The translations under genes were made by a program, and so were the position numbers. Below the pieces are notes generated by a model. That model was not told where the DNA came from. It saw only the letters and a program-made list of their open reading frames with translations, and ran no database searches. A DNA stretch of 64,000 nucleotides, taken from Cyclobacteriaceae bacterium. GTDB lineage: Bacteria; Bacteroidota; Bacteroidia; Cytophagales; Cyclobacteriaceae. The stretch lies in contig JAEUUJ010000022.1 of assembly GCA_016786495.1 (NCBI GenBank), positions 1-64,000 on the forward strand, in the 5' to 3' direction. Positions 15,975 through 36,468 of this stretch are shown piece by piece (position 1 is the first letter of the stretch; every line of letters starts with the position of its first letter).

Positions 15975-16826
15975 TTAGCTGCGCATCACGTAGGTAAGCA
16001 CCGGTTTGGTGGTGTGCTTGACTACATCCTCGGCAATGCTGCCGATGAATAAATGCGACAGTCCGCGATGGCCATGCGTGGCCATGCAAATCAGGTTTGC
16101 AGAAATGGTTGACGCAAAATGAATAATCCCATTCTCTTCATCCCAGTCGCTCACCATGTTCAGCGTATAGTTTTGAAGCGCCAGTTTTTTGGCAAACTGA
16201 ATCATGCCCGGTTTCACCAGGTGATCGGGCTGAAAATTCATGGGTGTATTAATGCGCACCAGATGCACTGTTGATCCGAAAATATCCTGCAACCGCTTGA
16301 CCACGTAACCGAAATCTTTTTCACGTTCGGCCAGCGATGTAGCATATACGATGTCTTTAAACGTTTGATCACCCGGCTCTTCATGTACGGTGAGCACCGG
16401 GCATTTTGCATACCGCACAACCTTATCGGAGTTGGAACCGCGGGCGAGTTCATCGAAGGTGGAATGGCCGGAGGCGCCCATCACCACAAGTTCCGTTTCC
16501 TGTTCAAGAATTTCAGTGCGAATACCATGAAACGGATTACCCATGCGCAACGCTACCCGAACATCAATGCCCTCGGCCGTTAACGCATCGGCCAGTTCGC
16601 TAAGTTTTGCCCGCCCCTGCTCGATCAGCTTCAGCGTAAACAGCTTATCTTCCCATCCCTGATCGACACCAATCTCACCCTCCACATTAAACGAATCGGT
16701 GATGGGGTGCTCAACGATGTGTAACAATAAAATTTTACTCTTTGCTTTCCGGGCAACTTTAATTGCCATTTGAAGCGCCCACTCCGCATGCTTGGAGAAA
16801 TCGGTCGGAACAAGGATAGTTTTCAT
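15975..16826 (-). CDS. Universal stress protein, tandem UspA domains
   Basis: 283 residues from the ATG at 16826 (MKTILVPTDFSKHAEWAL); a TTG at 16832 would add two residues. It has two Usp folds. The first ends with the nucleotide-binding pattern MGASGHSTFDELARGSNSDKV, the second with MATHGHRGLSHLFIGSIAEDV, so both halves keep the ATP-type G-x2-G-x9-G(S/N) motif. Such proteins are cytoplasmic and induced by starvation, redox or oxygen stress. Upstream is a TGAT-N4-ATCA dyad (16920-16931) and a perfect -7 element (16866-16873), like the other stress genes here. Confidence 0.9.
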   Translation of the reverse strand: MKTILVPTDFSKHAEWALQMAIKVARKAKSKILLLHIVEHPITDSFNVEGEIGVDQGWEDKLFTLKLIEQGRAKLSELADALTAEGIDVRVALRMGNPFHGIRTEILEQETELVVMGASGHSTFDELARGSNSDKVVRYAKCPVLTVHEEPGDQTFKDIVYATSLAEREKDFGYVVKRLQDIFGSTVHLVRINTPMNFQPDHLVKPGMIQFAKKLALQNYTLNMVSDWDEENGIIHFASTISANLICMATHGHRGLSHLFIGSIAEDVVKHTTKPVLTYVMRS

Positions 16827-16865
16827 ACACAATCAAATTTTTTATTCGTTTGGCAAATGCTGAAT

Positions 16866-16931
16866 CAAACTTAGCCGGATGACCGCAGCCGCTTCTCAGG
16901 ATTTCATCATACAGTCCGGTGATTTTTATCA
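16866..16931 (-). promoter_or_regulatory. usp promoter with FNR/CRP-like dyad
   Basis: On the minus strand, TGATAAAAATCA (16920-16931) is a perfect dyad. Exactly 22 bp nearer the gene lies a half-matching box, TGATGAAATCCT (16898-16909), and CCGG lies between them (16916-16919). TAAGTTTG (16866-16873) is a perfect -7 element, 30.5 bp from the centre of the nearer box. Regulator identity is inferred. Confidence 0.6.
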
Positions 16932-16932
16932 T

Positions 16933-16960
16933 ATAAAAAAGCGGAGTTTCCCCCGCTTGA
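16933..16960 (-). terminator. Rho-independent terminator of the ytxH-DUF202 operon
   Basis: On the minus strand AAGCGG (16953-16958) pairs with CCGCTT (16939-16944) around an 8-base loop, followed by a T run (16935-16940) and TATATG. It lies 55-80 bp past the DUF202 stop. A second weaker stem (AGTGC/GCACT, about 16964-16986) lies before it. Confidence 0.65.
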
Positions 16961-17013
16961 AAAAGTGCAGTTGTGACCCCGGCACTGCAATTTTTTAACT
17001 AACCTGATTAAAA

Positions 17014-17355
17014 TTAATCCGGGGCCAGATCACTCATGGTTCCTCGCGCAAGCTGGATAAACTCGGTACTCGTTTGTCCGATATTTTTCCGGCTCAACGC
17101 AATGGATTTTTTGATCCGCATAAAACGGTAGAAGCCTGCCATCATGATGATGAGTCCGATGATGATTACAGGTGTACCCGCGATCGACCAGAATACGGTG
17201 TTGACGATCTGCCCCAGGGTAGAACCGGCCACCAGGAAGTAAAGTCCGGTGCGGATATACGCCAGCAACGTGGTTTCGTTGGCGAGCCGCGTCCGCTCAA
17301 TGGCGAGGTGTTCGCGAAGAATCAAATCTGTTTTCATCGTTGTATATTTTGACAT
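17014..17355 (-). CDS. DUF202 (YidH-type) membrane protein
   Basis: 113 residues. It has the DUF202 signature LAIERTRLANETTLLAYIRTGLYFLVAG and two to three transmembrane segments (about 38-58, 64-88), then a short cytoplasmic tail. Members are small inner-membrane proteins of unknown function. It is the last gene of a three-gene minus-strand unit (ytxH, a membrane protein, DUF202) with gaps of 3 and 6 bp. The ATG at 17355 was taken; one at 17337 is also possible. Confidence 0.85.
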   Translation of the reverse strand: MSKYTTMKTDLILREHLAIERTRLANETTLLAYIRTGLYFLVAGSTLGQIVNTVFWSIAGTPVIIIGLIIMMAGFYRFMRIKKSIALSRKNIGQTSTEFIQLARGTMSDLAPD

Positions 17356-17361
17356 TCCCGT

Positions 17362-17880
17362 TTAATACGACCCAAACTCAATGCCAATACCGGCCATCCG
17401 TTTGAAGAATGCAGCCTCTGAGCCTTTTTCCTTTAGCCCCAGAACCAAACTATCGAACCCTGCCCACAGCAGAAACCAGCCCGCAGGTTCAAAAAGTGTT
17501 ATGATAAACGTTACCGCAAAACCTCCTGCCGACAGGCTTTTCAAATAACTGGCACCCAGCGATAACAGAAACCCGGCCAGCGCAAAGAACACGCCTCTTC
17601 TGCGGGCGGTGATCAGCGTCTCGCGCAGTCCGTTAGAAGTTTCTGTAAAAAAACTCTTCAGGCGTTGCCGGATGATTACTTCATCCTGAACCGATCTGAT
17701 TTTTTCAGGCACCAGTAAACGCAACCCGTTGGGCTGGTGACTTACCTCGCGCGAAGCGCGCCTAACCTGTGCAATAAAGTCGTCAGAAACGATGCGCGTA
17801 GCATACGGCCTCGGATCAAAATCGGAGAAGATGTCGCTGTAACCATCAATCCACAGAACAATGCCACCCGCTGCGCTCAT
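17362..17880 (-). CDS. Membrane protein of unknown function in the ytxH operon
   Basis: 172 residues, no family recognised. The first about 95 residues are soluble (WIDGYSDIFSDFDPRPYATR, then a helical region RQRLKSFFTETSNGLRETL). Two hydrophobic segments follow (about 98-117 and 123-148), and the C-terminal LKEKGSEAAFFKRMAG is polar. The layout suggests a cytoplasmic domain anchored in the inner membrane. It sits 3 bp after ytxH and 6 bp before the DUF202 gene, so it probably shares the stress promoter at 18164-18228. Confidence 0.7.
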   Translation of the reverse strand: MSAAGGIVLWIDGYSDIFSDFDPRPYATRIVSDDFIAQVRRASREVSHQPNGLRLLVPEKIRSVQDEVIIRQRLKSFFTETSNGLRETLITARRRGVFFALAGFLLSLGASYLKSLSAGGFAVTFIITLFEPAGWFLLWAGFDSLVLGLKEKGSEAAFFKRMAGIGIEFGSY

Positions 17881-17883
17881 GTT

Positions 17884-18141
17884 CTAACGATTCACAGTAT
17901 CCTCCGTTTTACGTTCGCATGCACCCGTATCGCAATCACATTGCTTACCCCGGGTGAATTTATTCCGCATGTGTTCGAACCGGTCGCCCAACGTGTCTTC
18001 CATTTCATCCAACAGGTCTTCAGCTTTGCGTCTGATTTTCCGTTGTGTTCGTTCACCTTTATCAGGTGCCAGTAAAACTCCCAACGCTGCGCCTGCGGCC
18101 AATCCGGCCAACACGCCCAAAATTGCTCTGCTCGTTTTCAT
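17884..18141 (-). CDS. YtxH domain protein
   Basis: 85 residues from the ATG at 18141 (MKTSRAILG); a GTG at 18147 would add two. The N-terminus is a glycine/alanine-rich membrane segment (GVLAGLAAGAALGVLLAPDKGERT) that defines YtxH proteins, followed by a charged helix (RRKAEDLLDEMEDTLGDRFEH) and a cysteine-containing tail (CDCDTGAC). YtxH proteins are small general-stress membrane proteins in many bacteria. It is the first gene of a three-gene unit sharing a divergent promoter region with a universal stress gene. Confidence 0.85.
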   Translation of the reverse strand: MKTSRAILGVLAGLAAGAALGVLLAPDKGERTQRKIRRKAEDLLDEMEDTLGDRFEHMRNKFTRGKQCDCDTGACERKTEDTVNR

Positions 18142-18163
18142 ACCCACGGTTTTTTAGTTGATA

Positions 18164-18259
18164 CTAAACTATCACCCACGCGGATGGAACGCCATGATAA
18201 CAATCAGCCATCCGGCTGACAATCATCAAACGCATTGCCTGTAAACAAAAACATCTTTG
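18164..18259. promoter_or_regulatory. Bidirectional stress promoter with paired FNR/CRP-like boxes (ytxH operon / usp)
   Basis: TGATAACAATCA (18195-18206) and TGACAATCATCA (18217-18228) are centred exactly 22 bp apart, with CCGG between them (18212-18215). Rightward, CATCTTTG (18252-18259, one mismatch to TAnnTTTG) begins 29.5 bp from the centre of the right box. Leftward, TAGTTTAG on the minus strand (18164-18171, one mismatch) begins 29.5 bp from the centre of the left box. The arrangement is mirror-symmetric, so one operator pair probably serves both directions. Confidence 0.65.
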
Positions 18260-18272
18260 ATAAACCCTTGCT

Positions 18273-19082
18273 ATGAAACGTATTCTTTGTCCTACCGACT
18301 TTTCTCCGGCTTCCGACAACGCAATAGCATTTGCCGCCAAAGTGGCGCAATCGACCGGGAGCACGATGACCCTCCTGCACATCGGATCAATCTTTGATGT
18401 GCTCGATGTAAATCTGAAACCCTCGCTTGCGCTGATCCGTGACGAACTGGAACTCCAGAGTTTACAGGTAAGCCGCACCTTTAAAATTTCATGCGACTCC
18501 GACATCCGGATCTCCTATCAGCAACTCAGCCATGCCATTCAAGAGTGTGAAACAACATACGACCTGCTGGTCGTGGGTACGGGCGGGCCAAACGATCTGC
18601 TCGCACTGTTATCAGGCGGTCATGCCTACCCCATCATCCGCGCCAGCACATTGCCTGTTTTGCTCATTCCCGAAGGTGTAACCTATCAGGGTTTCCAAAA
18701 AATAACCTTTGCGTTCGACTACTGGCGCACGCTGATATTACCGTACGAACCATTGCTGTGGCTGGTGCGTAAATACCAGAGCGAGCTCACCATATTACAG
18801 GTTATGGAAGAGTCGATCAGTGACGAAGCCGAAGCTGAACTCCTGCAATTGCAACGAAAATTCAATTCCGATCAAACCCGACACCTGAATTTTCACACCA
18901 CGCATGCCCGGGAGGTGCCGGATGCGATCAGCCACTACGTGAAGCATAACCACCCCGATCTGCTGGCCATGTGCGTGACGCACGACAGCTGGATAAAACG
19001 AATCTTCCACCGCAGCGCTATCAAACATCTGGCGGGCACCGCCAGATGCCCTTTGTACATATTTCCGATGGAAAATTCATAG
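18273..19082 (+). CDS. Universal stress protein, two UspA domains (second degenerate)
   Basis: 269 residues. The first Usp domain starts MKRILCPTDFSPASDNAI and has a nucleotide-loop-like VGTGGPNDLLALLSGGHAYPIIR. The second (from about residue 145) lacks a clear G-x2-G-x9-G motif and ends with HDSWIKRIFHRSAIKHLAG, so it probably does not bind ATP. Cytoplasmic stress protein; paralogues lie at 15975-16826 and 26578-27432. It is preceded by the paired operator at 18195-18228. Confidence 0.85.
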   Translation: MKRILCPTDFSPASDNAIAFAAKVAQSTGSTMTLLHIGSIFDVLDVNLKPSLALIRDELELQSLQVSRTFKISCDSDIRISYQQLSHAIQECETTYDLLVVGTGGPNDLLALLSGGHAYPIIRASTLPVLLIPEGVTYQGFQKITFAFDYWRTLILPYEPLLWLVRKYQSELTILQVMEESISDEAEAELLQLQRKFNSDQTRHLNFHTTHAREVPDAISHYVKHNHPDLLAMCVTHDSWIKRIFHRSAIKHLAGTARCPLYIFPMENS

Positions 19083-19089
19083 GGCGGGG

Positions 19090-19131
19090 TGATAAAAATC
19101 AGCCTACCGGTTGAGCAATGTGTTAGCATTC
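19090..19131 (+). promoter_or_regulatory. FNR/CRP-like box upstream of the Gre-like gene
   Basis: TGATAAAAATCA (19090-19101) is a perfect dyad, identical to the usp box at 26495. It is followed by CCGG (19107-19110) and, in the 22-bp register, only the half-match TGAG (19112). TAGCATTC (19124-19131) is a weak -7 candidate. The ATG at 19160 is 58 bp after the box. Confidence 0.5.
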
Positions 19132-19159
19132 AGAGTCCCAGGTAATCCAACTTCGATGC

Positions 19160-19633
19160 ATGAAAACGAAAAACTACAGCATTCTCCGCAGCCGCATTCT
19201 GAATGCTTGTATGGAGAAACAACAGCATCAGTTGAACGATTTCAACAACCGCATCAAGAGCATACTCGCCCACGAAGGGCTCGGCAACGAAGAAGAATAC
19301 GACACCACCGAACTGGCACATAATGCCCAGCAGGCCGATGAAATCAACGCCTTGAACGAATCGCTCACGTTTGCCAATTCAGATATGCAGGTACTTCAAT
19401 ACTTAAAAGCACTTTCCGAAGTACTGCATTCAACACCCGAATCGGGGGCCGTAGTGGTTACGGATAATGGAATGTTTTTCATTTCGGTCAGTGTCGGGCA
19501 GGTCACGGTTGACGAAAAAACGTTTACCGGGCTTTCAACGCACAGCCAGCTTTTTCTGGCGATGAAAGGAAAACATGCAGGCGACACGTTTGCGTTTGGC
19601 AAGAATAGATACCACATCCAGGAAATCTTCTGA
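19160..19633 (+). CDS. GreA/GreB-like protein
   Basis: 157 residues. Residues about 10-75 form a charged helical hairpin (EKQQHQLNDFNNRIKSILAHEG, HNAQQADEINALNESLTF), like the coiled coil of Gre factors. Residues about 90-157 resemble the Gre C-terminal FKBP-like domain, ending KGKHAGDTFAFGKNRYHIQEI, comparable with the GKKxGDxxxx-YxIxEI ending of GreA. Gre factors enter the RNA polymerase secondary channel to rescue stalled complexes. Whether this one cleaves RNA or only competes for the channel is unknown. It is followed 3 bp later by a DUF4136 gene and preceded by an FNR-like box. Confidence 0.65.
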   Translation: MKTKNYSILRSRILNACMEKQQHQLNDFNNRIKSILAHEGLGNEEEYDTTELAHNAQQADEINALNESLTFANSDMQVLQYLKALSEVLHSTPESGAVVVTDNGMFFISVSVGQVTVDEKTFTGLSTHSQLFLAMKGKHAGDTFAFGKNRYHIQEIF

Positions 19634-19636
19634 ATT

Positions 19637-20170
19637 ATGCGAACGATGTTGTTTTTGATGAGTGTGGTTTGGCTGGCCAGTTGCGGGCCTTCGTTACGCG
19701 TACAAACTGACTGCGATCCCGACTACGACTTATGGACGTACGCCACGTTCGACTGGGCGCATGTTGATTCTTCCGTTGTACGGAATCCGGCCTACTACAC
19801 CGAAATGAATGACAGGCGAATTAAGGAAGCGGTCATGCGTCAACTCTCCAAAAAGGGTTATCAACTCACGAACGAAAATCCCAACCTGTTGATTCAATAT
19901 CACCTTGTGGTAGAAGACAAAACGATGGTGGCCACGGAGCCCTTCGGCTATGTATACGGACCCTACTGGATGCGGACCCAACAAAACGTGTATCACTATA
20001 CGCAAGGCACGCTGATTATCGACATTACCGATACCCGGATCAACCAGTTGATCTGGCGCGGGTGGGCCGTGTCGGATGTGGATGGCCTTACGTCTCCAAA
20101 AGAAATTACGGCACGGGTTCATGCTGCCGTACGAAAAATGTTCGACTCGTTTCCGCAGCGTAAAAAATAA
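19637..20170 (+). CDS. DUF4136 lipoprotein
   Basis: 177 residues with a lipoprotein signal (MLFLMSVVWLASC, lipobox LASC). The body matches DUF4136: VQTDCDPDYDLWTYATFDWA near the start, NDRRIKEAVMRQLSKKGYQ in the middle, and IWRGWAVSDVDG with REITARVHAAVRKMFDSFP-like helices at the end. These are outer-membrane-anchored periplasmic proteins without an assigned function. It starts 3 bp after the Gre-like gene and is probably in one transcript with it. Confidence 0.85.
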   Translation: MRTMLFLMSVVWLASCGPSLRVQTDCDPDYDLWTYATFDWAHVDSSVVRNPAYYTEMNDRRIKEAVMRQLSKKGYQLTNENPNLLIQYHLVVEDKTMVATEPFGYVYGPYWMRTQQNVYHYTQGTLIIDITDTRINQLIWRGWAVSDVDGLTSPKEITARVHAAVRKMFDSFPQRKK

Positions 20171-20206
20171 AACGGCAGACGTTTAATCACACAGAAAATT
20201 ATCCGC

Positions 20207-20293
20207 ATGAAAAAGTATAAAAGCCACGTTTTGTTTATCATCCTTCTGACGCTTATTCTGCTGGCGATTGCCATTAAAGTTTGGGGCGAGTAA
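20207..20293 (+). CDS. 28-residue single-pass membrane peptide
   Basis: ATG at 20207, stop at 20291-20293. After a basic start (MKKYKSH) the peptide is one hydrophobic helix (VLFIILLTLILLAIAIKV) ending WGE, which fits an inner-membrane microprotein with the N-terminus inside. It lies 36 bp after the DUF4136 stop on the same strand, so it could share the stress-regulated transcript. No family recognised; short length lowers certainty. Confidence 0.45.
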   Translation: MKKYKSHVLFIILLTLILLAIAIKVWGE

Positions 20294-20311
20294 GCGTTTG
20301 CGAAAGAAGCG

Positions 20312-20497
20312 TCAGGAGCCCTGCTTGCCCTTCGACCGGATTAACTTGACAACAAAAATCAACACCACGACACCGGAAAGAAAACCCAGCGCATGTGCAA
20401 AAGGTCCGGCAATGATACCGAACCCGTAGCACAGCAAGACGGATATGGCAAGTGTTAGCTTGACAACCGAATCAGCATGGTCGAGGTTTTTAATCAT
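20312..20497 (-). CDS. Small two-helix membrane protein
   Basis: 61 residues: MIKNLDHADSVVKL, then two hydrophobic segments (about 14-32 and 34-52) and a basic tail (KLIRSKGKQGS). The pattern resembles DUF2892-type inner-membrane proteins, but I am not certain. Its start overlaps the stop of the upstream gene by 4 bp (ATGA), so the two are translationally coupled. Confidence 0.65.
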   Translation of the reverse strand: MIKNLDHADSVVKLTLAISVLLCYGFGIIAGPFAHALGFLSGVVVLIFVVKLIRSKGKQGS

Positions 20498-20898
20498 ACC
20501 TGTTTTACGTAGTCAAATACCTGTTTCTTGTATTCACGGATACGTTTCTCAAGACTGGCCATGTCGACCATGATTTCACGATGGCGCTGGCGGTATTCGA
20601 TTTCCAGTTCACCGGGAGCACGCAACAGCAGCAGCTTCAACAGTTCTTCGTGCTGGCGCAGCGATAACTTCAGGTCGGTAATGTCTTGTCCGGAAATGCA
20701 AAGCAATTCGTTTTCCAGGTCAGCAAGTTCGCGGGCCGGAAAAGCCCGGTTCACATCTTTCCTGCGGAGCAGGTTATAAAAAAATACAGCTTCATCTTTC
20801 CAAAAATCTGTTTCCCGCATCCATTCCAGCGTCTGGCTGTGCAGCCATTCGAGGTTTGCTTCAAGCAGGTGGTCGGTTTCAATTACGAGCGTTCTCAT
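20494..20898 (-). CDS. Helical protein of unknown function
   Basis: 134 residues, predicted almost wholly alpha-helical and charged (LEWLHSQTLEWMRETDFWKDEAVFFYNLL, LELRQHEELLKLLL-like, RQRHREIMVDMASLEKRIREYKKQ). No known domain recognised and no export signal. First gene of a two-gene unit, preceded by a paired TGAT-N4-ATCA-type operator (20950-20983), so it is probably part of the stress regulon. Confidence 0.7.
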   Translation of the reverse strand: MRTLVIETDHLLEANLEWLHSQTLEWMRETDFWKDEAVFFYNLLRRKDVNRAFPARELADLENELLCISGQDITDLKLSLRQHEELLKLLLLRAPGELEIEYRQRHREIMVDMASLEKRIREYKKQVFDYVKQV

Positions 20899-20918
20899 GT
20901 TTCGATCATTTTGTTTAT

Positions 20919-20983
20919 TGAAACTACTTCCGTAACCGATGAAAAGGCATGATAATGGTCAGCCCGTAATCTGACCTTCATCA
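20919..20983 (-). promoter_or_regulatory. Paired FNR/CRP-like boxes upstream of the helical-protein operon
   Basis: TGATAATGGTCA (20950-20961) and TGACCTTCATCA (20972-20983) are 22 bp apart centre to centre; each has one mismatch to TGAT-N4-ATCA. On the minus strand TAGTTTCA (20919-20926, two mismatches to TAnnTTTG) begins 29.5 bp from the nearer box. The start codon is 51 bp beyond the nearer box. Confidence 0.55.
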
Positions 20984-20999
20984 ACGCAAGCCGGAATCG

Positions 21000-22079
21000 T
21001 TATTTTCCCTCAGCGTTTGTCCCCAGCATGAGCGACCAGGTTTTCCACTTCGGGTTATGGTCGGCAATGAGTCGCGCAATGCCCACAAACGGAACAAACA
21101 AGATCATCCCCGCCATACCCCAGAGTATTCCTCCGGCAAAAATGGCCAGCAGCATTACCAGCGTATTCACATTGAGTTTCCGGCTTACCGCAAGCGGAAA
21201 GATAATATTGGCCTCGAGGTACTGAACAATCGCAAAAATGATCACCACGCCCAGCGGATACCATATCGAATCAAACGTGATCCATGCCATGGCGATCGGC
21301 AACAGGGAACCAATGATGATCCCCACGTAGGGAATAAACGTTAACACGGCAACGATAAATCCAAACAGAATGGCGTGCGGAACCCCCAGCAACAACAACC
21401 CGAGGCTGTTGAGAACACCCACAATCAGGTAGACAATCGCCATCCCTTTAATAAAACTGTAGTACGACTGAATTGTAAGCGTAATCATTTTATGAAGACT
21501 CTCCTTTCGCTCCGATGAGAAAATCCGCGTCAGCACCAGCAGCCACATCTTACGATAGTACAAAATCAGCACTGCATAAACAGGAACAAGAATCAGCATG
21601 ACCAATGAGAAGGCCGAAGCGCTGAACACATGCCGGAGCACCTGCATCAGGGTTCCGCCCGATTGATCGGTGATAGACGTAATCAGCCGCTGTTGTGCGG
21701 CCATCGAGAACCCCCAATCAGTATCCAGAAAAATCTGGAAACTGGTCATTGCCTGCGCAAGCTTTTCGCGAATCAGCGGCCACTCCTCCACAAATCCGAA
21801 GAATTGATTCACCAGCAGGAATACCAGTAACAGTGCAACGATCATCAATCCGGTAATCGAAACGATAATCGCAGGCATCCGTCCAAATCCTTTTTGTTCC
21901 AGCCAGTGACAAACGGGATACAATACAAAACTGATGAGCAGCGCAAAGCTTAACGGAACGAACAGGCTTTTGCCCACGTATAAAATCGCCGAACCATACA
22001 CCACGATCTGAAGGCCTTGCAGGAACGTAATTTTTCCTGCTTTCATTTTGCGGACAACCGATTGTGTGTAGGTGCTCAT
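21000..22079 (-). CDS. AI-2E family transporter (permease)
   Basis: 359 residues from the ATG at 22079 (MSTYTQSVVRKMK); an in-frame ATG at 22133 would run into the upstream gene. Seven to eight transmembrane segments are visible, with the family pattern LIVGVLNSLGLLLLGVPHAILFGFIVAVLTFIPYVG and the C-terminal YLEANIIFPLAVSRKLNVNTL. The family includes the AI-2 exporter TqsA and Na+/H+ antiporters; the substrate is not predictable. Last gene of a four-gene minus-strand unit from 24991, 1 bp after the MBL gene. Confidence 0.9.
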   Translation of the reverse strand: MSTYTQSVVRKMKAGKITFLQGLQIVVYGSAILYVGKSLFVPLSFALLISFVLYPVCHWLEQKGFGRMPAIIVSITGLMIVALLLVFLLVNQFFGFVEEWPLIREKLAQAMTSFQIFLDTDWGFSMAAQQRLITSITDQSGGTLMQVLRHVFSASAFSLVMLILVPVYAVLILYYRKMWLLVLTRIFSSERKESLHKMITLTIQSYYSFIKGMAIVYLIVGVLNSLGLLLLGVPHAILFGFIVAVLTFIPYVGIIIGSLLPIAMAWITFDSIWYPLGVVIIFAIVQYLEANIIFPLAVSRKLNVNTLVMLLAIFAGGILWGMAGMILFVPFVGIARLIADHNPKWKTWSLMLGTNAEGK

Positions 22080-22080
22080 C

Positions 22081-23478
22081 TTAAATTCCTTCAAACAGTG
22101 AAAACGACTCCAGGTACTCCGGCACGACCACATTCCAGTTCAACTGATCGCGAATGGACTGCGCGTATTGATCAACACCGGGTGCTTCCCCATGCACCGT
22201 AAAAACCTGCTTGGGCCGCGTTTCAAAACCTTTCATCCACGCGAACAGCTCCGTCCTGTCGGCATGACCGGAGAGGGAGGTCATATTCTCCACATGGCAT
22301 TTTACCGGAACCTCTTCCCCGAAAATGCGGATCGTTGGCTTCTTATCTACCAGATCCCGTCCGCGGGTGCCCTCGGCCTGGTAGCCAGCAACCAGCAGTG
22401 TATCTTCAGGATTCCGCAAGCGGTGATACAAATGGTGTAATATCCGCCCGCCCGTCATCATGCCGCTGGAGGATATGATGATCGCATTACTCTTGATTTC
22501 GTTCAGGCTCTTCGAGTGAAGCTCATTTTTCACAAATACCAGCATATTGGTTTCAAGTTGACGCGCAAACAACGAGTTACTGAAATCAACTTTATGATAA
22601 TCCGGGAAACGATAATACAGGTATGTAGTAGAGATCGCCATCGGACTGTCGATGTATACCGGGATATCCGGAATACGGCCTGCATCCATGAGTTGATGAA
22701 AGTAATACAGTAATGTTTGCGTCCGCCCGACAGCGAATGCCGGTATCAGCAACACACCGTTTCGTTCACAAACCGATTTTACAATCCGTTCCAGGTCAGT
22801 CATCGGATCAACTGCCGGATTATCTTTCACTCCGTAAGTCGACTCGATAAACAATACATCAGCTTCTTTGATGCGCTTGGGCGGATGCAGCATTGCATCG
22901 TTTTGTCGGCCGAGGTCGCCCGAGAAAACAATTTTCTTCGTCTGCGAATCGCCCTTGATAAAAACTTCCGTGATGGCAGAACCCAACAGGTGGCCGGCAT
23001 CGTGATAGCAAATGGAAACAGCCGGATGAATAGTTACCAGCTCTTCATAGTCAACGGTATGAATAAGCGGAAAAACCAGCTCAGCATCTGCACTTGTGTA
23101 CAGCGGCTGTGGATTACTGTGGCGCGAGTATCCTTTTCTCCGCGCGAAAGCAGCTTCCTCCTCCTGCAGCTTGGCTGAGTCGAGCAGCATGATTTTCATT
23201 AGTTCGGCCGTAGGCGGTGTGCAATAAATCTTGCCCGCAAAACCTTCTTTCATGAGTTTTGGCAAATAGCCCGAATGGTCGATATGCGCATGGCTGATTA
23301 CGACTGCATCCAGCGTGGCCGGATCAACCGGAAATTCATCCCAGTTGCGCAGCCGCAGTTCCTTCAATCCCTGGAATAGACCGCAGTCGAACAGCATTCT
23401 AAACTTGCCCACAGTAACCAGATACCGTGAACCAGTTACAGACCGGGCCGCGCCTAAAAACTTTACCGAAACATTCAT
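22081..23478 (-). CDS. MBL-fold / beta-CASP metallo-hydrolase with RNA-specificity (RMMBL) domain
   Basis: 465 residues. The metallo-beta-lactamase zinc motif is SHAHIDHSG (about 58-66), with further zinc-ligand histidine (GHLLGSA) and aspartate (FSGDLGRQND). A beta-CASP region follows (PVYIDSPMAISTTYLY, SSSGMMTGGRILHHL), and the C-terminus has SLSGHADRTELFAW and VFTVHGE, typical of CPSF-73-like RNases. Family members are endo/exoribonucleases; this bacterial branch has unknown RNA targets. In an operon with AI-2E, a membrane protein and DUF6544, under the operator at 25038-25071. Confidence 0.9.
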   Translation of the reverse strand: MNVSVKFLGAARSVTGSRYLVTVGKFRMLFDCGLFQGLKELRLRNWDEFPVDPATLDAVVISHAHIDHSGYLPKLMKEGFAGKIYCTPPTAELMKIMLLDSAKLQEEEAAFARRKGYSRHSNPQPLYTSADAELVFPLIHTVDYEELVTIHPAVSICYHDAGHLLGSAITEVFIKGDSQTKKIVFSGDLGRQNDAMLHPPKRIKEADVLFIESTYGVKDNPAVDPMTDLERIVKSVCERNGVLLIPAFAVGRTQTLLYYFHQLMDAGRIPDIPVYIDSPMAISTTYLYYRFPDYHKVDFSNSLFARQLETNMLVFVKNELHSKSLNEIKSNAIIISSSGMMTGGRILHHLYHRLRNPEDTLLVAGYQAEGTRGRDLVDKKPTIRIFGEEVPVKCHVENMTSLSGHADRTELFAWMKGFETRPKQVFTVHGEAPGVDQYAQSIRDQLNWNVVVPEYLESFSLFEGI

Positions 23479-23483
23479 GACAA

Positions 23484-23906
23484 CTATTTAAAGCGAGAAA
23501 GGTATTTACCCAATACAATCAGTACCAGGCCGATCAACCCAAACGAAATCTGAAGAAAATTCAACTCCCGTAACATCATAATCTGTACGATAATCCAGCC
23601 TGTCAGTACAATTCCCTGAAACATCACCAGCGGACCATGGAATCGCGCGTTGAAGGTTAGCGCAAGAAACGCGATCGTGCTGAACAACCCGTTGCACACA
23701 AACAACACGATACCCGGAATGAGAAAATCTGAAAACGGACTGTGTTCGAGATACCGTAACGGAATGTTACTTGTTGTTCCGCCGGGGTCAAGCATCATGG
23801 GTATACTGCCAATGAAAGCCCCGATGCCATTGAGCAGCAACAGGAATAACGCGGTGTACTTGACAAAGCTGCGGAGTTCGGGTGAGTTTGCACTGATGGG
23901 TTTCAT
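23484..23906 (-). CDS. Four-helix membrane protein of unknown function
   Basis: 140 residues with four hydrophobic segments (about 15-35, 60-85, 88-108, 113-133). No named family recognised; small Bacteroidota membrane proteins of this layout are common. Its start overlaps the stop of the DUF6544 gene by 4 bp and it ends 5 bp before the MBL gene, so it is translationally embedded in that operon. Confidence 0.7.
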   Translation of the reverse strand: MKPISANSPELRSFVKYTALFLLLLNGIGAFIGSIPMMLDPGGTTSNIPLRYLEHSPFSDFLIPGIVLFVCNGLFSTIAFLALTFNARFHGPLVMFQGIVLTGWIIVQIMMLRELNFLQISFGLIGLVLIVLGKYLSRFK

Positions 23907-24991
23907 ACGTTGTAGGCGATCTTGTCAATGTGAAATTTGCCATACACAAAATTTCCGTCTTCGTATTGATAAACTGCTTCCGCATACCGCGGCAAATGAT
24001 ATCCGAGGCGGTCGTCATACTGACTGAGGGGAGTTGACCAGGGCAATTGCTGAAACTGACCGTTGTCGAGTAACGCAGACCGGTCGTGCGATACAAAGTT
24101 TACCAGTTCAAACCGATCGTTAAAAAACAGGTCGGCAGAAACTGAAATATCCCCGTTGGTGAAGGTAGCGTTTATTTTTCCATTACCCTCATCCCGCCAG
24201 GTAATGCGCGGGTCAATCAGTGTAGCCGGAGCCATGCAGCACATATCGTTAAAAAATGTCACTGTCTCCGACTTATTCATGACCGGGCCGGAAGCGTATT
24301 GAACACGAAAGAGCGAGAGCAACCGGATGTCCATGAACGCCACGCCATCTTTCAAACAATGAAAGCCCGCCACCGGAATGCGGTTCTTGCGGGCATTCAT
24401 AAAAAACAAACGCGATGATGCGTTCATAAAGTTGTACTGCGTAGACGTAAACGGCATCCACTCGCCACCTTTGCTTCGGATCGCGCCTGTCAGCTCAACC
24501 CTGAAGTTCTTCACGCGGGGTTGCACCATTGCACCGGAATTGAGAACATAACTTCGTACCGCCTGTGGTAAGTGTTCAAGGTCAGCTTGCTGTAACGCTG
24601 TAACATTTTCTTTTTTACCCTGCTTCCGCAGCAGTTCCACTTCGCTGTGATAATGATTGCTGAAACTCCACACACCGTACCCCACAATGGTGATCACAAG
24701 AATGATGATGTTCAACGCGGTGCCGAGTGCTGCATCTTCCCAATCGCTGATGATCAGGTATTGTGAGACAATCAGTGCCAACACTGAAATCAACCACCAC
24801 CATTTATTGTAATTCAGGAAAAGCATGGCTGACGCGATAAACAAGACAGATGCAATCGCCCAAAAAATTCCATGAACCCGTGAAATCGGATGCGGGAGTT
24901 GTGGCAATTCAGCCATCCCGAATGCCTTGATAAACCCGGGCATATGCAACACTCCGTGAATAAAAATGATGATGATGAAAAGAATTCGCAT
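23903..24991 (-). CDS. DUF6544-type membrane protein
   Basis: 362 residues. Three to four transmembrane segments occupy the first about 120 residues (MRILFIIIIFIHGVLHMPG, a GIFWAIASVLFIASAMLF segment and two more). The C-terminal about 230 residues are a soluble, lipocalin-like or START-like domain of the DUF6544 kind (LPQAVRSYVLNSG, EWMPFTSTQYNFMN, ATLIDPRITWRDEGNGKI). Function unknown. First gene of the four-gene unit ending with the AI-2E transporter, 46 bp from its operator. Confidence 0.75.
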   Translation of the reverse strand: MRILFIIIIFIHGVLHMPGFIKAFGMAELPQLPHPISRVHGIFWAIASVLFIASAMLFLNYNKWWWLISVLALIVSQYLIISDWEDAALGTALNIIILVITIVGYGVWSFSNHYHSEVELLRKQGKKENVTALQQADLEHLPQAVRSYVLNSGAMVQPRVKNFRVELTGAIRSKGGEWMPFTSTQYNFMNASSRLFFMNARKNRIPVAGFHCLKDGVAFMDIRLLSLFRVQYASGPVMNKSETVTFFNDMCCMAPATLIDPRITWRDEGNGKINATFTNGDISVSADLFFNDRFELVNFVSHDRSALLDNGQFQQLPWSTPLSQYDDRLGYHLPRYAEAVYQYEDGNFVYGKFHIDKIAYNV

Positions 24992-25037
24992 AAAAGATTT
25001 TTATTTTGAATATCGCATGCTGCATAAACCGGTATGC

Positions 25038-25071
25038 TGATAAAGATCATTATCCGGCCTGATTTTCATGA
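25038..25071 (-). promoter_or_regulatory. Paired FNR/CRP-like boxes upstream of the DUF6544-MBL-AI-2E operon
   Basis: TGATAAAGATCA (25038-25049, perfect half-sites) and TGATTTTCATGA (25060-25071, one mismatch) are 22 bp apart with CCGG between (25054-25057). The nearer box is 46 bp from the ATG at 24991. No clear -7 element is visible at the 29.5-bp position, a weakness compared with the other promoters. Confidence 0.55.
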
Positions 25072-25080
25072 CCTTAGCCC

Positions 25081-26307
25081 TTAACTGGCTTTCTTCGTGA
25101 TTCTCAGATTACCGTTACGTTCTTCATACTTTTTCAGCATGGGATAAGCGTTACGATCGAGCGCTTCATTCATCTTAACGATCACCGAGTCGATCTCCAG
25201 CGCAGAGTCGCGAATCTTGTCGACCAGAAATTCCTTCTCGGGATATTCGCTGAACAAAGACGACAATCCCAGCAGCCGGGCTACCGGGCCGCGCAGTTCA
25301 TGTGACGTCTGGAATGCATAGTGCGACAGATCTTTCAGTAAAATGTTTTGCTCGTACTCCAACTGTTTACGTTCGGTAATCAGGTATCGCACCGACATGA
25401 ACATGTATATCTTCCGTTCCGAGTTGTAAACCGGGTTAATGAAGGTGTCTACCCAGTAAAAAGTACCGTCTTTACGCTTATTGCGAATATCGGCACGCCA
25501 GGTTTTTCCTTTCCCGATCGTGCGCCACATTTCTTTCCAGAACTCGGATGGATGATAACCGGAATTAACGACACTATGGTTCTGTCCGACCAGTTCGCTT
25601 TCGGCATAACCCGATACCTCACAAAATTTTTCATTGGCCTGCACAATCGTACCATTCAGGTCCGTAACGCTCACCAGCGCAGCGCTGTTGAGGGCATGCC
25701 GCATATTTTCCCGTTCGATTTCCGCGCGCATCTCCCGGTTGATGTTGATAGCCGTTACCATCCGGCAGGGCTTGTTCGCGTAGGTGGTGTCGTTTGCAAA
25801 AATGTTCACATAAAACGGCACTCCGTCTTTTCCTTTATGCAGCCACTTTTCGGTTGTCAATAATCCCGGCTGGTGTTTTGTAACGATCTCTTTCAGGCGG
25901 TCGTACTCGTCTGCCGGGCGAATGGCAAAAAGGTTCATCCGGTAAAATTCTTCGCGCGCGTATCCGTAGGCTTTACAGGCGGCATCGTTAACCAGCAGAA
26001 ACTTCAACGTCTTCTGGTCATAAATCCACATCGGGTTCGGATTCTCTGCGAACAGGCGTTTGAAATCGTTTTTGACGGCCACGATGGAACGGAATGCACG
26101 TTTGATGAGCACGGCCAGCAACAGGGATGTGACCGCTACATAAAAGAAACCTTTGTAGGTAGCCAGTTGCTGGAAATGACTATGCGCCCAGCCCGGCAAC
26201 GAACTGATACTAAACAATGCGGCATCACTAAACGTAATCCACAATAATCCCGCGATCAGGTAGACCGCAGGAATGGTGATGTAGGCGAATTTTTTACTGA
26301 GTTGCAT
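25081..26307 (-). CDS. Membrane PAS-PAS sensor with a DHp-like helix but no ATPase domain
   Basis: 408 residues. Two transmembrane segments (about 8-28 and 50-66) are followed by two PAS domains: about 80-205 (ENPNPMWIYDQKTLKFLLVN) and about 210-330 (VSVTDLNGTIVQANEKFCEVSGY). A histidine-kinase H-box-like sequence follows (SHYAFQTSHELRGPVARLLGL, His in SHELR), then a helix, and the protein stops after ITKKAS. No N, G1 or G2 box of a HATPase_c domain is present before or after the stop. It may be phosphorylated in trans, or act as a sensor without kinase activity. Its probable promoter (26441-26484) is divergent from the usp-ccoI operon. Confidence 0.8.
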   Translation of the reverse strand: MQLSKKFAYITIPAVYLIAGLLWITFSDAALFSISSLPGWAHSHFQQLATYKGFFYVAVTSLLLAVLIKRAFRSIVAVKNDFKRLFAENPNPMWIYDQKTLKFLLVNDAACKAYGYAREEFYRMNLFAIRPADEYDRLKEIVTKHQPGLLTTEKWLHKGKDGVPFYVNIFANDTTYANKPCRMVTAININREMRAEIERENMRHALNSAALVSVTDLNGTIVQANEKFCEVSGYAESELVGQNHSVVNSGYHPSEFWKEMWRTIGKGKTWRADIRNKRKDGTFYWVDTFINPVYNSERKIYMFMSVRYLITERKQLEYEQNILLKDLSHYAFQTSHELRGPVARLLGLSSLFSEYPEKEFLVDKIRDSALEIDSVIVKMNEALDRNAYPMLKKYEERNGNLRITKKAS

Positions 26308-26440
26308 AACATAAGGGGTGTTAAGCGGAAATAAGAGTTATGCCCCCCGGGAGATTCATCGGCACAGGTAACGCTAATTGCAATCCATGCTTGGCTGAAT
26401 TTCGGGGTGCGGCCAATTTTTTTCATGCTAAAATTTTAAT

Positions 26441-26559
26441 CAAAACTATCCCCGTCCTGCCCGTAATCACATGACCCGGGTCATTCCGGCCAGATGATAA
26501 AAATCAGTCCCGGCTGTGATTGTCATCAAGTGCTGCCCGGGGTCTGCGACCTATTTTTG
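26441..26559. promoter_or_regulatory. Divergent promoter region with three operator boxes (PAS sensor / usp-ccoI-ccoS operon)
   Basis: Boxes TGATAAAAATCA (26495-26506) and TGATTGTCATCA (26517-26528) have perfect half-sites, are 22 bp apart and flank CCGG (26510-26513). Rightward, TATTTTTG (26552-26559) is a perfect -7 element starting 29.5 bp from the centre of the second box. A third palindrome, ATGACCCGGGTCAT (26471-26484), is centred 29.5 bp from a perfect minus-strand -7 element, TAGTTTTG (26441-26448), which would drive the PAS gene with a long leader. Confidence 0.65.
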
Positions 26560-26577: not shown

Positions 26578-27432
26578 ATGAAAAAGCTGTTAGTCCCCTG
26601 CGATTTTTCGCACCAAGCGCTGAACGCTTTTCAGTTTGCGCTCGACATTGCCGCCAAGTCACCGAACAGCACCGTGCACCTGCTGCACGTAGTAGAGCTG
26701 CCGGTGTTGCACGATTCCGTTCTGATGCCCGTGCTCTCATTTGAGCAGGATTTGATGGATGAACTGAAGGAAAAAGCCGACAAGGAATTCGACATCGTTG
26801 AAAAAACCTACAACAAAGACAAGGTGAAGGTGGTAAGCGAAGTTCTGTTCGGAAAGGTTTCCGATATGATTGTCCGCTACTGCCAGGACCAGCAGATTGA
26901 CATGCTCATCATGGGTTCGCACGGAGCGAGCGGTGTACGAGAACTTTTCATCGGATCGAACGCAGAAAAAATTGTCCGCCATTCAGCCGTGCCCGTGCTG
27001 GTGGTGAAAGACACCTTTAAGGGACCGATCAAAAACATCGTATTCCCCAATACACTGGAAACTGAACATCAGGAAGACCTTGTGATGAAAGTGAAAGAAC
27101 TCCAGCACTTTTTCGGAGCGCACCTTCACATCCTGTGGGTAAACACCCCGCTGAACTTCACTACCGATACCGAAACCAAAAAGCGGCTTGAACAGTTTGT
27201 AAAACGCTTCCAGTTTAAGAACTACACCATCAACACGTACAACCACCTGAGTGCGGAAGAAGGCATTATCGACTTTGCCAAAAACATGGACGCCAGCCTG
27301 ATCGCCATGGGCACCCACGGCCGGAAAGGAATTGCCCACATGTTCTATGGCAGCCTGACCGAATCGCTGGTCAACCATACCGAAAAACTGGTGTGGTCGT
27401 ATGTGATGAAACCTGAACCCGTAACTGCGTAA
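26578..27432 (+). CDS. Universal stress protein, tandem UspA domains
   Basis: 284 residues from the ATG at 26578 (MKKLLVPCDFSHQALNAF), which sits just after a promoter-like TATTTTTG; an in-frame start at 26494 overlaps the operator and is rejected. Both Usp domains keep the nucleotide motif: MGSHGASGVRELFIGSNAEK and MGTHGRKGIAHMFYGSLTES. First gene of an operon with ccoI (13 bp), a CoA-transferase (20 bp) and ccoS (9 bp), which ties it to cbb3-oxidase assembly and low-oxygen conditions. Confidence 0.9.
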   Translation: MKKLLVPCDFSHQALNAFQFALDIAAKSPNSTVHLLHVVELPVLHDSVLMPVLSFEQDLMDELKEKADKEFDIVEKTYNKDKVKVVSEVLFGKVSDMIVRYCQDQQIDMLIMGSHGASGVRELFIGSNAEKIVRHSAVPVLVVKDTFKGPIKNIVFPNTLETEHQEDLVMKVKELQHFFGAHLHILWVNTPLNFTTDTETKKRLEQFVKRFQFKNYTINTYNHLSAEEGIIDFAKNMDASLIAMGTHGRKGIAHMFYGSLTESLVNHTEKLVWSYVMKPEPVTA

Positions 27433-27445
27433 CCCTAAAAAGAAA

Positions 27446-29842
27446 ATGACTCGTACAGACGTTGTTGCTGAAACCACGTGTTTTCATTGCGGAGCTACAT
27501 GTGAAGAAATTCACTGGAATAACGATAAGCCGTTTTGCTGCAAGGGGTGCGAAACGGTGTATGAAATCCTGGACAGCAACAACCTGTGCGAGTACTATGA
27601 CCTGAACGCGGCCCCCGGAACAAAAACTCTTGCAATTACCGATACCTCCTACGCGTATCTGGACGAACCGGAAATCACCGCTAAGCTTCTTACATTCAAC
27701 TCCCCTTCTTTCGCTTCCGCGGATTTCTTTGTGCCTTCCGTACACTGCGTATCTTGCATCTGGCTGCTCGAAAATCTCACGAAACTTCACCCCGGTGTAG
27801 TTGATTCGAAAGTGAACTTTGTGAAGAAGACAGTTCACGTAGACTTCAATCCTGCAAAGATCAGTTTGGGAACTGTTGCCGGCCTGCTCGCCTCGGTTGG
27901 GTATGCGCCACGCATCACGCTCGAACAGGAGAAAAAAGAAAAACCGCGCACTGATCGGTCACTCATTCTGAAACTGGCGATAGCCGGATTTGCCTTCGGA
28001 AACGTGATGCTGTTTTCATTCCCGGAATACCTGGGTATTGATCAGGCCGATCACACACTTACGCGCATCTTTTCCTGGCTGAACGTAGCACTCTCGGTAC
28101 CCGTGCTGTTTTACAGCGGCATCGACTACCTGCGGGCAGCCGTGCGCAGCTTTCAGCAAAAACAAATCAACATTGATGTACCCATCGCAGCAGGATTGCT
28201 GGCTTTGTTTTTCAGAAGCACCTACGATATTGCCACCGCAACAGGACCGGGATATCTTGATTCATTTACCGGACTTGTTTTCTTTTTGTTAATTGGCCGT
28301 TGGTTCCAGAGCAAAACATACGAAAGCCTGGCGTTCGACCGTGACTTCACCTCCTATTTCCCGCTCGCAGTGAACCGCCTCGATCAAGAGGGCGACTGGA
28401 AACCGGTGGTCATCTACCACCTTAAAAAAGGCGACACCATCCGCATTCGCAATCTCGAACTTATTCCTGCCGACAGTATCTTACTCGATGCCTCGGCTTA
28501 CATCGACTACAGCTTTGTTACCGGTGAAGCCAAGCCGGTGAAAGCAAAAAGCGGTGATAAGGTATTCGCGGGTGGCCGCCTGATCGGCACGGCCGTAAGC
28601 CTGGCAGTTGAAAAGAGCACATCACAAAGTCAACTGACCAGTTTATGGAACAGTGATGCCTTCAAAAAAGTAAACGAAAGCAAATACAAAAAGATAATCG
28701 ACCGCGCAGCCCGCAACTTTACATGGGTTATTATGGCCGTTGCAGCTGTAACGGCAGTGTACTGGTACATGACCGAACCCGCATCGATGTGGCTGGTAAT
28801 CACTTCGGTGTTAATGGTGGCGTGCCCGTGTGCGCTGGCCCTCGCAGCCCCCTTTACCCTGGGAAGCGTATTGCGTGAACTCGGCAAGCGACAACTGTAT
28901 TTAAAGAATGCCGATGTGGTGGAGCGAATGGGTACAATCAATGCAGTGGTGTTCGACAAAACCGGCACCGTTACGCATGGTCAGGATCCTGAAGTTGACC
29001 TGGTAGGAGAACTCGATGAACACGAGCTCGCCAAAGTAAAACTGCTCACCGGCTTTTCTACACACCCGCTCAGCAAGTTCGTACACGAATACATCCGCAA
29101 AAGCGCAACCGGGTCGGTTGACGATTTCCGCGAACTTCCCGGCAAGGGAATTCAGGCACACCTTCAGGGTAAAGTGTACAAGATCGGCTCTGCCGCATTC
29201 ACAGGCTTTCACGAAAAACTCGATCAGTCCGCATCTTATGTATTTGTATCCATCGATGACGAAGTGAAAGGGTATTTCATGATCCGCACGATGATTCGCA
29301 GAAATATTTCCGACATGATTCAGCGGCTCGGAAACAAATGCAAGGCCCTGCTCTCGGGCGACCACGAAACTGAAAAGCAACCGATGACCCACATCTTCGG
29401 TTCCCATACAACCTTGCGGTTTAACCAAAGTCCACACGACAAGCTTGCCTACATTCACGAACTACAGACCAGCGGCAATACGGTAATGATGGTAGGTGAC
29501 GGACTGAACGATGCCGGTGCGCTGAAGCAGGCGGATGTTGGCATTGCCGTAACCGACGACACCGGAGTATTCACACCGGCATGCGATGGCATACTGCACG
29601 GAAGTGAAATCACCAAGCTCGACAAAATGCTGGAACTCACGCGGGCATCCTCAACGATTTTAAAATCAGGCTTTGCTATTTCATTCTTTTATAATGCCAT
29701 TGCGCTAAGTTTTGCTGTGAGCGGCCACTTAACACCGCTCGTGGCAGCTATCCTGATGCCGATCAGCAGCATCAGCGTGGTTTCATTCTCTACGCTGGCG
29801 GTGAAATGGGTAGCCAACCAAAAATTCAACGATATTAACTGA
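27446..29842 (+). CDS. ccoI: Copper-type P1B ATPase for cbb3 oxidase assembly (CcoI/FixI-like)
   Basis: 798 residues. The N-terminus has the cysteine-rich metal-binding segment seen in CcoI proteins (CFHCGATCEE, FCCKGCETVY, residues about 11-45), then an HMA domain with Cys101-Val-Ser-Cys104. The membrane metal site is Cys460-Pro-Cys462, and Asp504 in DKTGTVTHG is the phosphorylated residue; GDGLNDAGALKQADVGIAV closes the P domain. CcoI exports copper needed by cytochrome cbb3 oxidase. The assignment is strengthened by ccoS two genes downstream, but the oxidase genes ccoNOP are not next to it. Confidence 0.88.
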   Translation: MTRTDVVAETTCFHCGATCEEIHWNNDKPFCCKGCETVYEILDSNNLCEYYDLNAAPGTKTLAITDTSYAYLDEPEITAKLLTFNSPSFASADFFVPSVHCVSCIWLLENLTKLHPGVVDSKVNFVKKTVHVDFNPAKISLGTVAGLLASVGYAPRITLEQEKKEKPRTDRSLILKLAIAGFAFGNVMLFSFPEYLGIDQADHTLTRIFSWLNVALSVPVLFYSGIDYLRAAVRSFQQKQINIDVPIAAGLLALFFRSTYDIATATGPGYLDSFTGLVFFLLIGRWFQSKTYESLAFDRDFTSYFPLAVNRLDQEGDWKPVVIYHLKKGDTIRIRNLELIPADSILLDASAYIDYSFVTGEAKPVKAKSGDKVFAGGRLIGTAVSLAVEKSTSQSQLTSLWNSDAFKKVNESKYKKIIDRAARNFTWVIMAVAAVTAVYWYMTEPASMWLVITSVLMVACPCALALAAPFTLGSVLRELGKRQLYLKNADVVERMGTINAVVFDKTGTVTHGQDPEVDLVGELDEHELAKVKLLTGFSTHPLSKFVHEYIRKSATGSVDDFRELPGKGIQAHLQGKVYKIGSAAFTGFHEKLDQSASYVFVSIDDEVKGYFMIRTMIRRNISDMIQRLGNKCKALLSGDHETEKQPMTHIFGSHTTLRFNQSPHDKLAYIHELQTSGNTVMMVGDGLNDAGALKQADVGIAVTDDTGVFTPACDGILHGSEITKLDKMLELTRASSTILKSGFAISFFYNAIALSFAVSGHLTPLVAAILMPISSISVVSFSTLAVKWVANQKFNDIN

Positions 29843-36337: not shown

Positions 36338-36468
36338 GTTGCAGAGGTTCGGAAGCTACCAATTTTTGGGGTATGTAGGTTTACAGGAGCAGTTTACGCA
36401 ACCTGACAGGGGTGCCCAACTTGATAAAAGTCAATGGTTTACTTCCGGGAATCCGCTACATTTCGCAA

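Follow-up and report, generated by a model that had tools for sequence, protein, structure and literature searches.

The window, a stretch of 64,000 nucleotides that forms the start of contig JAEUUJ010000022.1 (C1) of a Cyclobacteriaceae bacterium (assembly GCA_016786495.1), contains an island of stress and microaerobic genes. Between positions 16,866 and 26,559 the promoters of this island carry a composite operator, in which two dyads of the form TGAY-N4-RTCA are set at a pitch of 22 bp. The genes concerned, assigned by Pfam where indicated, are the following.

15975..16832, minus strand: universal stress protein (usp) gene (Pfam)
17884..18147, minus strand: YtxH-like gene (Pfam)
18273..19082, plus strand: usp gene (Pfam)
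19160..19633, plus strand: open reading frame (ORF) previously called Gre-like, no Pfam match
20494..20898, minus strand: ORF, no Pfam match
21000..24991, minus strand: run of genes for an AI-2E transporter, a beta-CASP MBL protein, an unnamed ORF and a DUF6544 protein
25081..26307, minus strand: PAS protein gene (Pfam), HisKA below the cut-off, no HATPase match
26578..27432, plus strand: usp gene, for which the listed ORF start (26494) lies too far upstream
27446..29842, plus strand: gene for a CcoI-like cation-transporting P-type ATPase

The first-pass annotation had proposed that six promoters of this stretch share a dyad resembling the FNR box, with a second copy 22 bp away at four of them and a half-match at two. 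A pattern search located these matches, together with a further dyad next to the last pair.

16898..16931, minus strand: degenerate pair in which the dyad at 16920 is good and the other has 3 mismatches
18195..18228, no strand assigned: exact pair (dyads at 18195 and 18217) between the divergent ytxH and usp genes
19090..19123, plus strand: a single good dyad whose mate has 3 mismatches, upstream of ORF 19160-19633
20950..20983, minus strand: pair upstream of ORF 20494-20898
25038..25071, minus strand: pair (1 mismatch) upstream of the DUF6544 gene 23903-24991
26472..26483, minus strand: TGACCCGGGTCA, a third dyad spaced 23 bp from that at 26495 and belonging to the PAS gene
26495..26528, plus strand: exact pair (dyads at 26495 and 26517) upstream of usp 26578-27432 and of the P-type ATPase gene (CcoI-like) at 27446-29842

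Dyads were indeed present at all six promoters, with one good dyad each at 16920 and 19090, and the pairing was borne out by best matches with 0 to 1 mismatch at 18195, 20950, 25038 and 26495. The supposed half-matches, the mates in the 16898 and 19090 pairs, had 3 mismatches each. When up to 3 mismatches were allowed, the pair gave 12 strand-matches at 7 distinct places in the window; shuffled windows yielded a mean of 2.14 and at most 8, and 12 was reached in 0 of 100 shuffles. The seventh place (52337, 3 mismatches) lies outside the earlier claim. Genome-wide (4.0 Mb in 90 contigs), 6 places had 0 to 1 mismatch, 5 of them on C1. The sole place elsewhere with 1 mismatch, C48:60249, is not inside a long open frame, and of 11 further places with loci on other contigs 9 lay inside long open frames and 2 did not. 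On C1, 17 of the 30 perfect TGAYN4RTCA dyads were found outside genes, namely 15 listed as intergenic plus those at 26495 and 26517 within the over-long ORF start, and 8.5% of this contig lies outside called ORFs. ATCA-type words are common in these genomes and the pair gives 193 strand-matches genome-wide at up to 3 mismatches, as would be expected if it arose by chance from the frequent TGA and TCA words of this genome. This explanation is contradicted by the controls of gap, placement and register described below, and its probability is practically negligible.

The pitch of 22 bp, corresponding to a gap of 10 bp, is a property of the pair throughout the family. A search of 98 family genomes for TGAT-N4-ATCA and TGAY-N4-ATCA separated by 0 to 30 bp, without mismatch, yielded a list of 90 distinct places, to which 43 of the 77 positive genomes contributed. 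The gap was 10 bp at 38 of these places (22 genomes), while the other 30 gaps occurred 1.73 times on average and at most 5 times. With up to 1 mismatch the pair was found in 92 of the 98 genomes, partly by chance. The gap-10 sites were almost entirely intergenic (36 of 38); of the remaining two, one was located at the 5' end of an ORF and the other inside a coding frame. Among 40 of the 52 places with other gaps, the last 12 on the list being excluded, 12 were intergenic, 7 at an ORF 5' end and 21 in a coding frame. The pair is consequently commoner upstream of genes than inside them (37 of 38 gap-10 sites versus 19 of 40 other-gap sites), contrary to what the first-pass annotation had named as evidence against a regulatory role. 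A second sample comprised loci around the gene of a receiver-CRP/FNR fusion protein, described below, from 80 of 579 relatives in the phylum. They span Ohtaekwangia, Chryseolinea, Pontibacter, Dyadobacter, Hymenobacter and Reichenbachiella and include metagenome-assembled genomes labelled Flavobacteriales, Chitinophagaceae and Saprospiraceae. Here 78 gap-10 pairs (up to 1 mismatch) were present in 47 loci, and the next most frequent gap, 11 bp, occurred 8 times.

The position of the pair relative to the promoter was likewise fixed. It had been claimed that several of the nearer dyads lie 29.5 bp from a TAnnTTTG element. The claim held exactly for 26517 (plus strand) and 26472 (minus strand) and with 1 mismatch for 18217 (plus) and 18195 (minus); the match was poor at 20950, 25038 and 19090 (2 to 4 mismatches), and the box of 16920 (minus) was one base off. 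The boxes are as follows.

16866..16873, minus strand: -7 box TAAGTTTG of usp 15975-16832, one base off the standard register (found by eye)
18164..18171, minus strand: -7 box TAGTTTAG (1 mismatch) of the ytxH gene, exact register
18252..18259, plus strand: -7 box CATCTTTG (1 mismatch) of usp 18273-19082, exact register
minus strand, in register with the 20950 pair: weak -7 box TAGTTTCA (2 mismatches)
26441..26448, minus strand: exact -7 box TAGTTTTG of the PAS gene 25081-26307
26552..26559, plus strand: -7 box TATTTTTG, exact box in exact register with the 26495 pair

The 18195 pair thus has a one-mismatch box on either side, for usp and for ytxH, and the 25038 pair has no good -7 box in register. 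On C1, TAnnTTTG (up to 1 mismatch) occurred at 29.5 bp in 6 of 42 dyad-orientations, compared with a mean of 0.30 at other offsets (10 to 79, excluding 28 to 30). One other offset likewise reached 6; our guess is that it is +51, the place expected from distal dyads. Past the window, the promoter of the ccoNO fusion gene combines a perfect distal dyad, a proximal dyad with 1 mismatch and TACTTTTA in exact register.

The register became more apparent in the pooled pair sites, 126 in number, which include sites of this genome and loci fetched around CRP genes: TTTG started exactly 33 bp from the centre of the proximal dyad in 46 of them, versus a mean of 2.0 and a maximum of 7 at other offsets. 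In the phylum loci TTTG was in register beside 52 of the 78 pairs, in 6 cases on both sides, as would be expected of divergent promoters. When perfect dyads were considered without requiring a pair, TTTG stood at +33 in 61 and at +55 in 76 of 530 dyad-orientations, and each of the other offsets from 20 to 59 gave 0 to 14. For the 61 dyads with TTTG at +33, an upstream dyad (up to 1 mismatch) was located at 22 bp in 25 cases and at 23 bp in 7, the other spacings from 12 to 50 bp giving 0 or 1 each. In Flavobacterium psychrophilum, for which transcription starts have been mapped, the TAnnTTTG box occupies -12 to -5 (PMC9723704). Together with the TTTG register, this box position puts the two dyads at about -41.5 and -63.5, so that by the predicted start the proximal dyad would have the position of a class II promoter site.

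Two further dyads of the window deserve mention. At 36422, a single dyad is followed by TACATTTC in exact register upstream of an ORF with a weak O-methyltransferase dimerisation match. The PAS protein encoded at 25081-26307, which has a dyad of its own and a perfect -7 box, may not be able to phosphorylate without a partner.

The operator unit is polar, the AT-rich dyad being the distal one. In 46 oriented sites the four inner bases were 90% AT in the distal and 51% AT in the proximal dyad, and the distal dyad was the AT-richer in 34 sites, the proximal in 5; the distal consensus is near TGAYAAAAATCA. The same polarity was seen in 58 oriented phylum sites, with an inner AT content of 78% distal versus 60% proximal and a perfect distal dyad in 50 of 58 sites versus a perfect proximal dyad in 25. 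This asymmetry breaks the symmetry of a unit that otherwise almost equals its own reverse complement, a likeness from which one could conceive of the 34 bp as a single long palindromic site, bound by a repressor or a higher oligomer that represses in oxygen. Since the spacer is unconserved and both dyads, at -41.5 and -63.5, precede the -7 box, the layout is that of an activator site, and we consider such a repressor site quite improbable. The polarity would agree with a heterotypic pair, in which one regulator (e.g. the fusion) occupies the proximal and another (e.g. a plain CRP/FNR protein) the AT-rich distal dyad and two signals are combined; two or more CRP/FNR-type genes are present on the contig, as this arrangement would need. 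It seems nevertheless unlikely, given the half-site consensus common to both dyads and the presence of the pair in single-regulator lineages, and the polarity may merely reflect DNA bending or unequal affinity.

A CCGG core of the spacer had also been proposed. It occurs in 5 of the 6 window spacers as claimed (post hoc binomial test with the contig as background, P about 1e-6), at offsets that vary without fixed register (16898-26528). Outside this genome CCGG is rare: it was present in 5 of the 126 spacers of the pooled set and in 3 of the 58 oriented sites from the phylum. We therefore rejected it as a general part of the operator, regarding it as local to this genome. The spacer was T-rich (47% T) among the 46 oriented sites, though not in this genome.

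As the first-pass annotation had stated, no CRP/FNR gene was detected in the window by domain search. The genome contains 14 cNMP-domain matches, three of them on C1 past the window (73132, 80663 and 94758), and the CRP/FNR-type genes of C1 are located at 73003, 80570 and 94431. The last of these (94431-95492) encodes a fusion protein of 353 amino acids (aa) with a receiver, a cNMP-binding domain and a Crp-type helix-turn-helix (HTH) domain, HTH_Crp_2; its receiver residues Asp52 and Lys104 were invariant in 14 aligned relatives. Directly upstream of the fusion lies a kinase gene (95496-96746) encoding a PAS domain followed by HisKA and HATPase. The PAS domain matches FixL at 8e-14, its best match (7e-15) being another kinase, 10jx. 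In the alignment, His69 corresponds to the FixL His and Arg89 to the Arg altered in entry 1y28, both of which have a haem-related role in FixL. Both were kept in all 18 kinases with an aligned PAS domain from 30 family loci. Near full-length fusion matches were present in 44 of the 98 family genomes, among the matches listed, and in the phylum loci the kinase stood directly upstream of the fusion in 71 of 80 cases. An N-terminal cysteine cluster was seen, by eye, neither in the fusion nor in the other candidate regulator on C1, a protein of 247 aa; the latter has one cysteine and the fusion three scattered ones. Because both candidates lack such a cluster, a classical iron-sulfur (Fe-S) FNR is unlikely to be the regulator.

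The occurrence of the operator is associated with that of the fusion gene. The exact composite site, defined as pair, 27 bp and TTTG, occurred in 26 of the 296 phylum genomes, of which 25 belong to the window's class (73 genomes) and 1 to the 223 others; the reversed pattern gave 0, a control that differs from the pattern in word make-up, for which reason other gaps served as the main control. The fusion, counted as present at E <1e-70 and with one genome (G000) added from the family search, occurred in 43 of the 73 class genomes, that is in 23 of 25 with the composite site versus 20 of 48 without (Fisher 3.5e-5). Within one genus, composite sites were found in 3 of 4 genomes with the fusion versus 0 of 13 without (p 0.006); the Fisher tests treat genomes as independent, and kinship is controlled for solely by this comparison within a genus. 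Of the 23 genomes having both, 13 had a site no more than 25 kb away from the fusion gene; the 7 with site and fusion on separate contigs were scored as not near. Furthermore, 18 of 51 loci had a pair (up to 1 mismatch) in the 260 bp that precede the kinase-fusion operon, compared with 0 to 4 for nine other gaps.

The genes next to the pairs suggest the physiological context. On C1 the island extends past the window to the cbb3 operon, with the ccoNO fusion at 85514, ccoP at 87905, ccoG at 88997 and ccoH at 90468, and further to a YceI gene (91744) and more usp genes (96827 and 112835). In the relatives, the genes facing gap-10 pairs within 400 bp (n=43, Pfam; one of the 38 sites, L133, was left out as it shares the promoter of L132) included 6 Usp, 2 Hsp20 and 2 molybdopterin oxidoreductase genes, as well as single genes for the hydrogenase small subunit, HypA, FixH, BON, DUF4136, PEP carboxykinase and methylmalonyl-CoA mutase, these being drawn from 25 of the 45 families assigned. 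For the control pairs with other gaps, 1 of 27 facing genes was a usp gene.

Taken together, these results indicate that the pair is probably a tandem class II operator for dimers of the CRP/FNR type, with the fusion as main activator where it is present and a plain paralogue otherwise. A first dimer on the proximal dyad at -41.5 would replace the upstream promoter element and contact RNA polymerase. A second dimer at -63.5, two helical turns upstream and on the same face of the DNA, may aid the first, both presumably acting in activation rather than repression. With falling oxygen, a signal suggested by the residues of the kinase and by the target genes, the FixL-type haem-PAS kinase would phosphorylate the receiver of the fusion, which is most likely the main activator. 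Such a circuit would correspond to FixL-FixJ-FixK in one step. The plain CRP/FNR paralogue (C1:73003) probably reads the same sites and would act in genomes without the fusion.

Several observations weigh against this assignment. A pair (up to 1 mismatch) was missing at 33 of the 51 kinase promoters, and the kinase promoter of the present genome has a degenerate pair with a -7 box one base off; the nearest site entered for this genome lies 68 kb from the fusion gene. The exact composite site was missing in 20 of the 43 class genomes with the fusion, and a good -7 box at several pairs of the window. In the first match of each phylum locus, sometimes not the kinase beside the fusion, the distal Arg was kept in 34 of 69 kinases and the His in 67 of 69. 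One control pair faces the cytochrome oxidase gene COX1 and others two cNMP-domain genes, and some sites with other gaps may therefore belong to the regulon. The median number of pairs per family genome, with regulator groups assigned from the matches listed, was 4 with both regulators (n=17), 4 with the fusion only (27), 4 with the plain protein only (44) and 2.5 with neither (10). Within the family, pair numbers thus did not separate the regulator types, in contrast to the exact composite site across the class. Genome G056, with neither close match, had up to 12 pairs, one of them directly upstream of another CRP-family gene (C168).

Some of these points would equally fit a plain CRP/FNR paralogue that reads the pair everywhere, the fusion being a neighbour with other targets. 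Plain-CRP loci carried the pair (up to 1 mismatch) in 16 of 30 cases, frequently in the interval that separates the 3' end of the CRP gene from the gene that follows, versus 7 of 30 fusion loci, with respective means of 0.07 and 0.23 for other gaps; plain-only family genomes held as many pairs as those with the fusion, and 2 of the 25 class genomes with composite sites lack it. The sites nevertheless accompany the fusion across the class and within one genus, and the 18 of 51 kinase-fusion operons directly preceded by a pair speak for a link to the fusion itself. We regard a role of the plain paralogue alone as possible but doubtful. In our view, several related CRP/FNR-type proteins read the operator, the fusion being the chief one where present, since plain-only genomes are equally rich in pairs, plain-CRP loci carry them and the G056 pair stands by a CRP-family gene.

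Three further observations concern these regulators. In the phylum kinases of loci L248-L305, Met replaces the distal Arg of FixL in 17 of 69 cases, with the proximal His kept, and others have Leu or Ile; these are perhaps haem sensors with another ligand or with redox sensing. On C1 at 79081 (L021:15081), a perfect dyad without in-register -7 box lies between a PAS kinase gene (minus strand) and a gene run (plus strand) leading to a CRP-like protein without Pfam HTH match. Outside the class, exact composite sites occur in a single genome (G365:C1), which has four; two neighbouring plain CRP genes lie some 16-17 kb from one of these sites.

The dyad, the class II placement and the haem kinase are of known kinds. 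The kinase shows the features of FixL (haem His, distal Arg, HisKA and HATPase) and is predicted to bind haem, and the system resembles the rhizobial FixL-FixJ-FixK2 cascade in its haem-PAS kinase, which bears the His and Arg of FixL, its receiver, its HTH of the CRP/FNR type and the cbb3 genes as likely targets. It differs in that receiver and CRP/FNR parts are joined in one protein with no separate FixK step: unlike FixJ, the output consists of a cNMP domain and HTH_Crp_2 and is not of the GerE/LuxR type, and unlike FixK, the CRP/FNR part is not a stand-alone protein under FixJ. FixK also recognises a single box, whereas the operator described here has two dyads. The DosR dormancy regulon likewise combines haem kinases with Usp and Hsp20 targets, but has a LuxR-type output and a different site. 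In tandem CRP/FNR promoters of Escherichia coli (class III), a class II site is accompanied by an upstream site for a like dimer; the present operator differs by its fixed 22-bp pitch and by a polarity kept across a class. In Sphingopyxis granuli, Fnr boxes of ccoN and uspA lie at -41.5 (PMC7713065). Those class II promoters share with the present ones a TGA-type dyad at -41.5 and the cbb3 and usp genes, and differ from them by the second dyad common here at -63.5, by the TAnnTTTG -7 box and by candidate regulators without an Fe-S cysteine cluster. A description of the pair or of the receiver-CRP fusion was not found in the open-licence literature searched.

The exact rule, two dyads at a 22-bp pitch with TTTG 33 bp from the proximal centre, could allow a low-oxygen and stress regulon to be read from Bacteroidota genomes, and it names a two-gene circuit of kinase and fusion as a testable candidate. 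On a wider scale, the arguments are evenly balanced for a module common to the class within the Bacteroidota, in which a haem kinase and one receiver-CRP/FNR fusion, acting as two dimers on a polar -41.5/-63.5 operator, would replace both the Fe-S FNR and the FixJ-FixK cascade and command a survival regulon of cbb3, Usp, Hsp20 and hydrogenase genes. If this is true, tandem class II activation would be fixed over a whole class, and the functions of FixJ and FixK would be joined in one protein.

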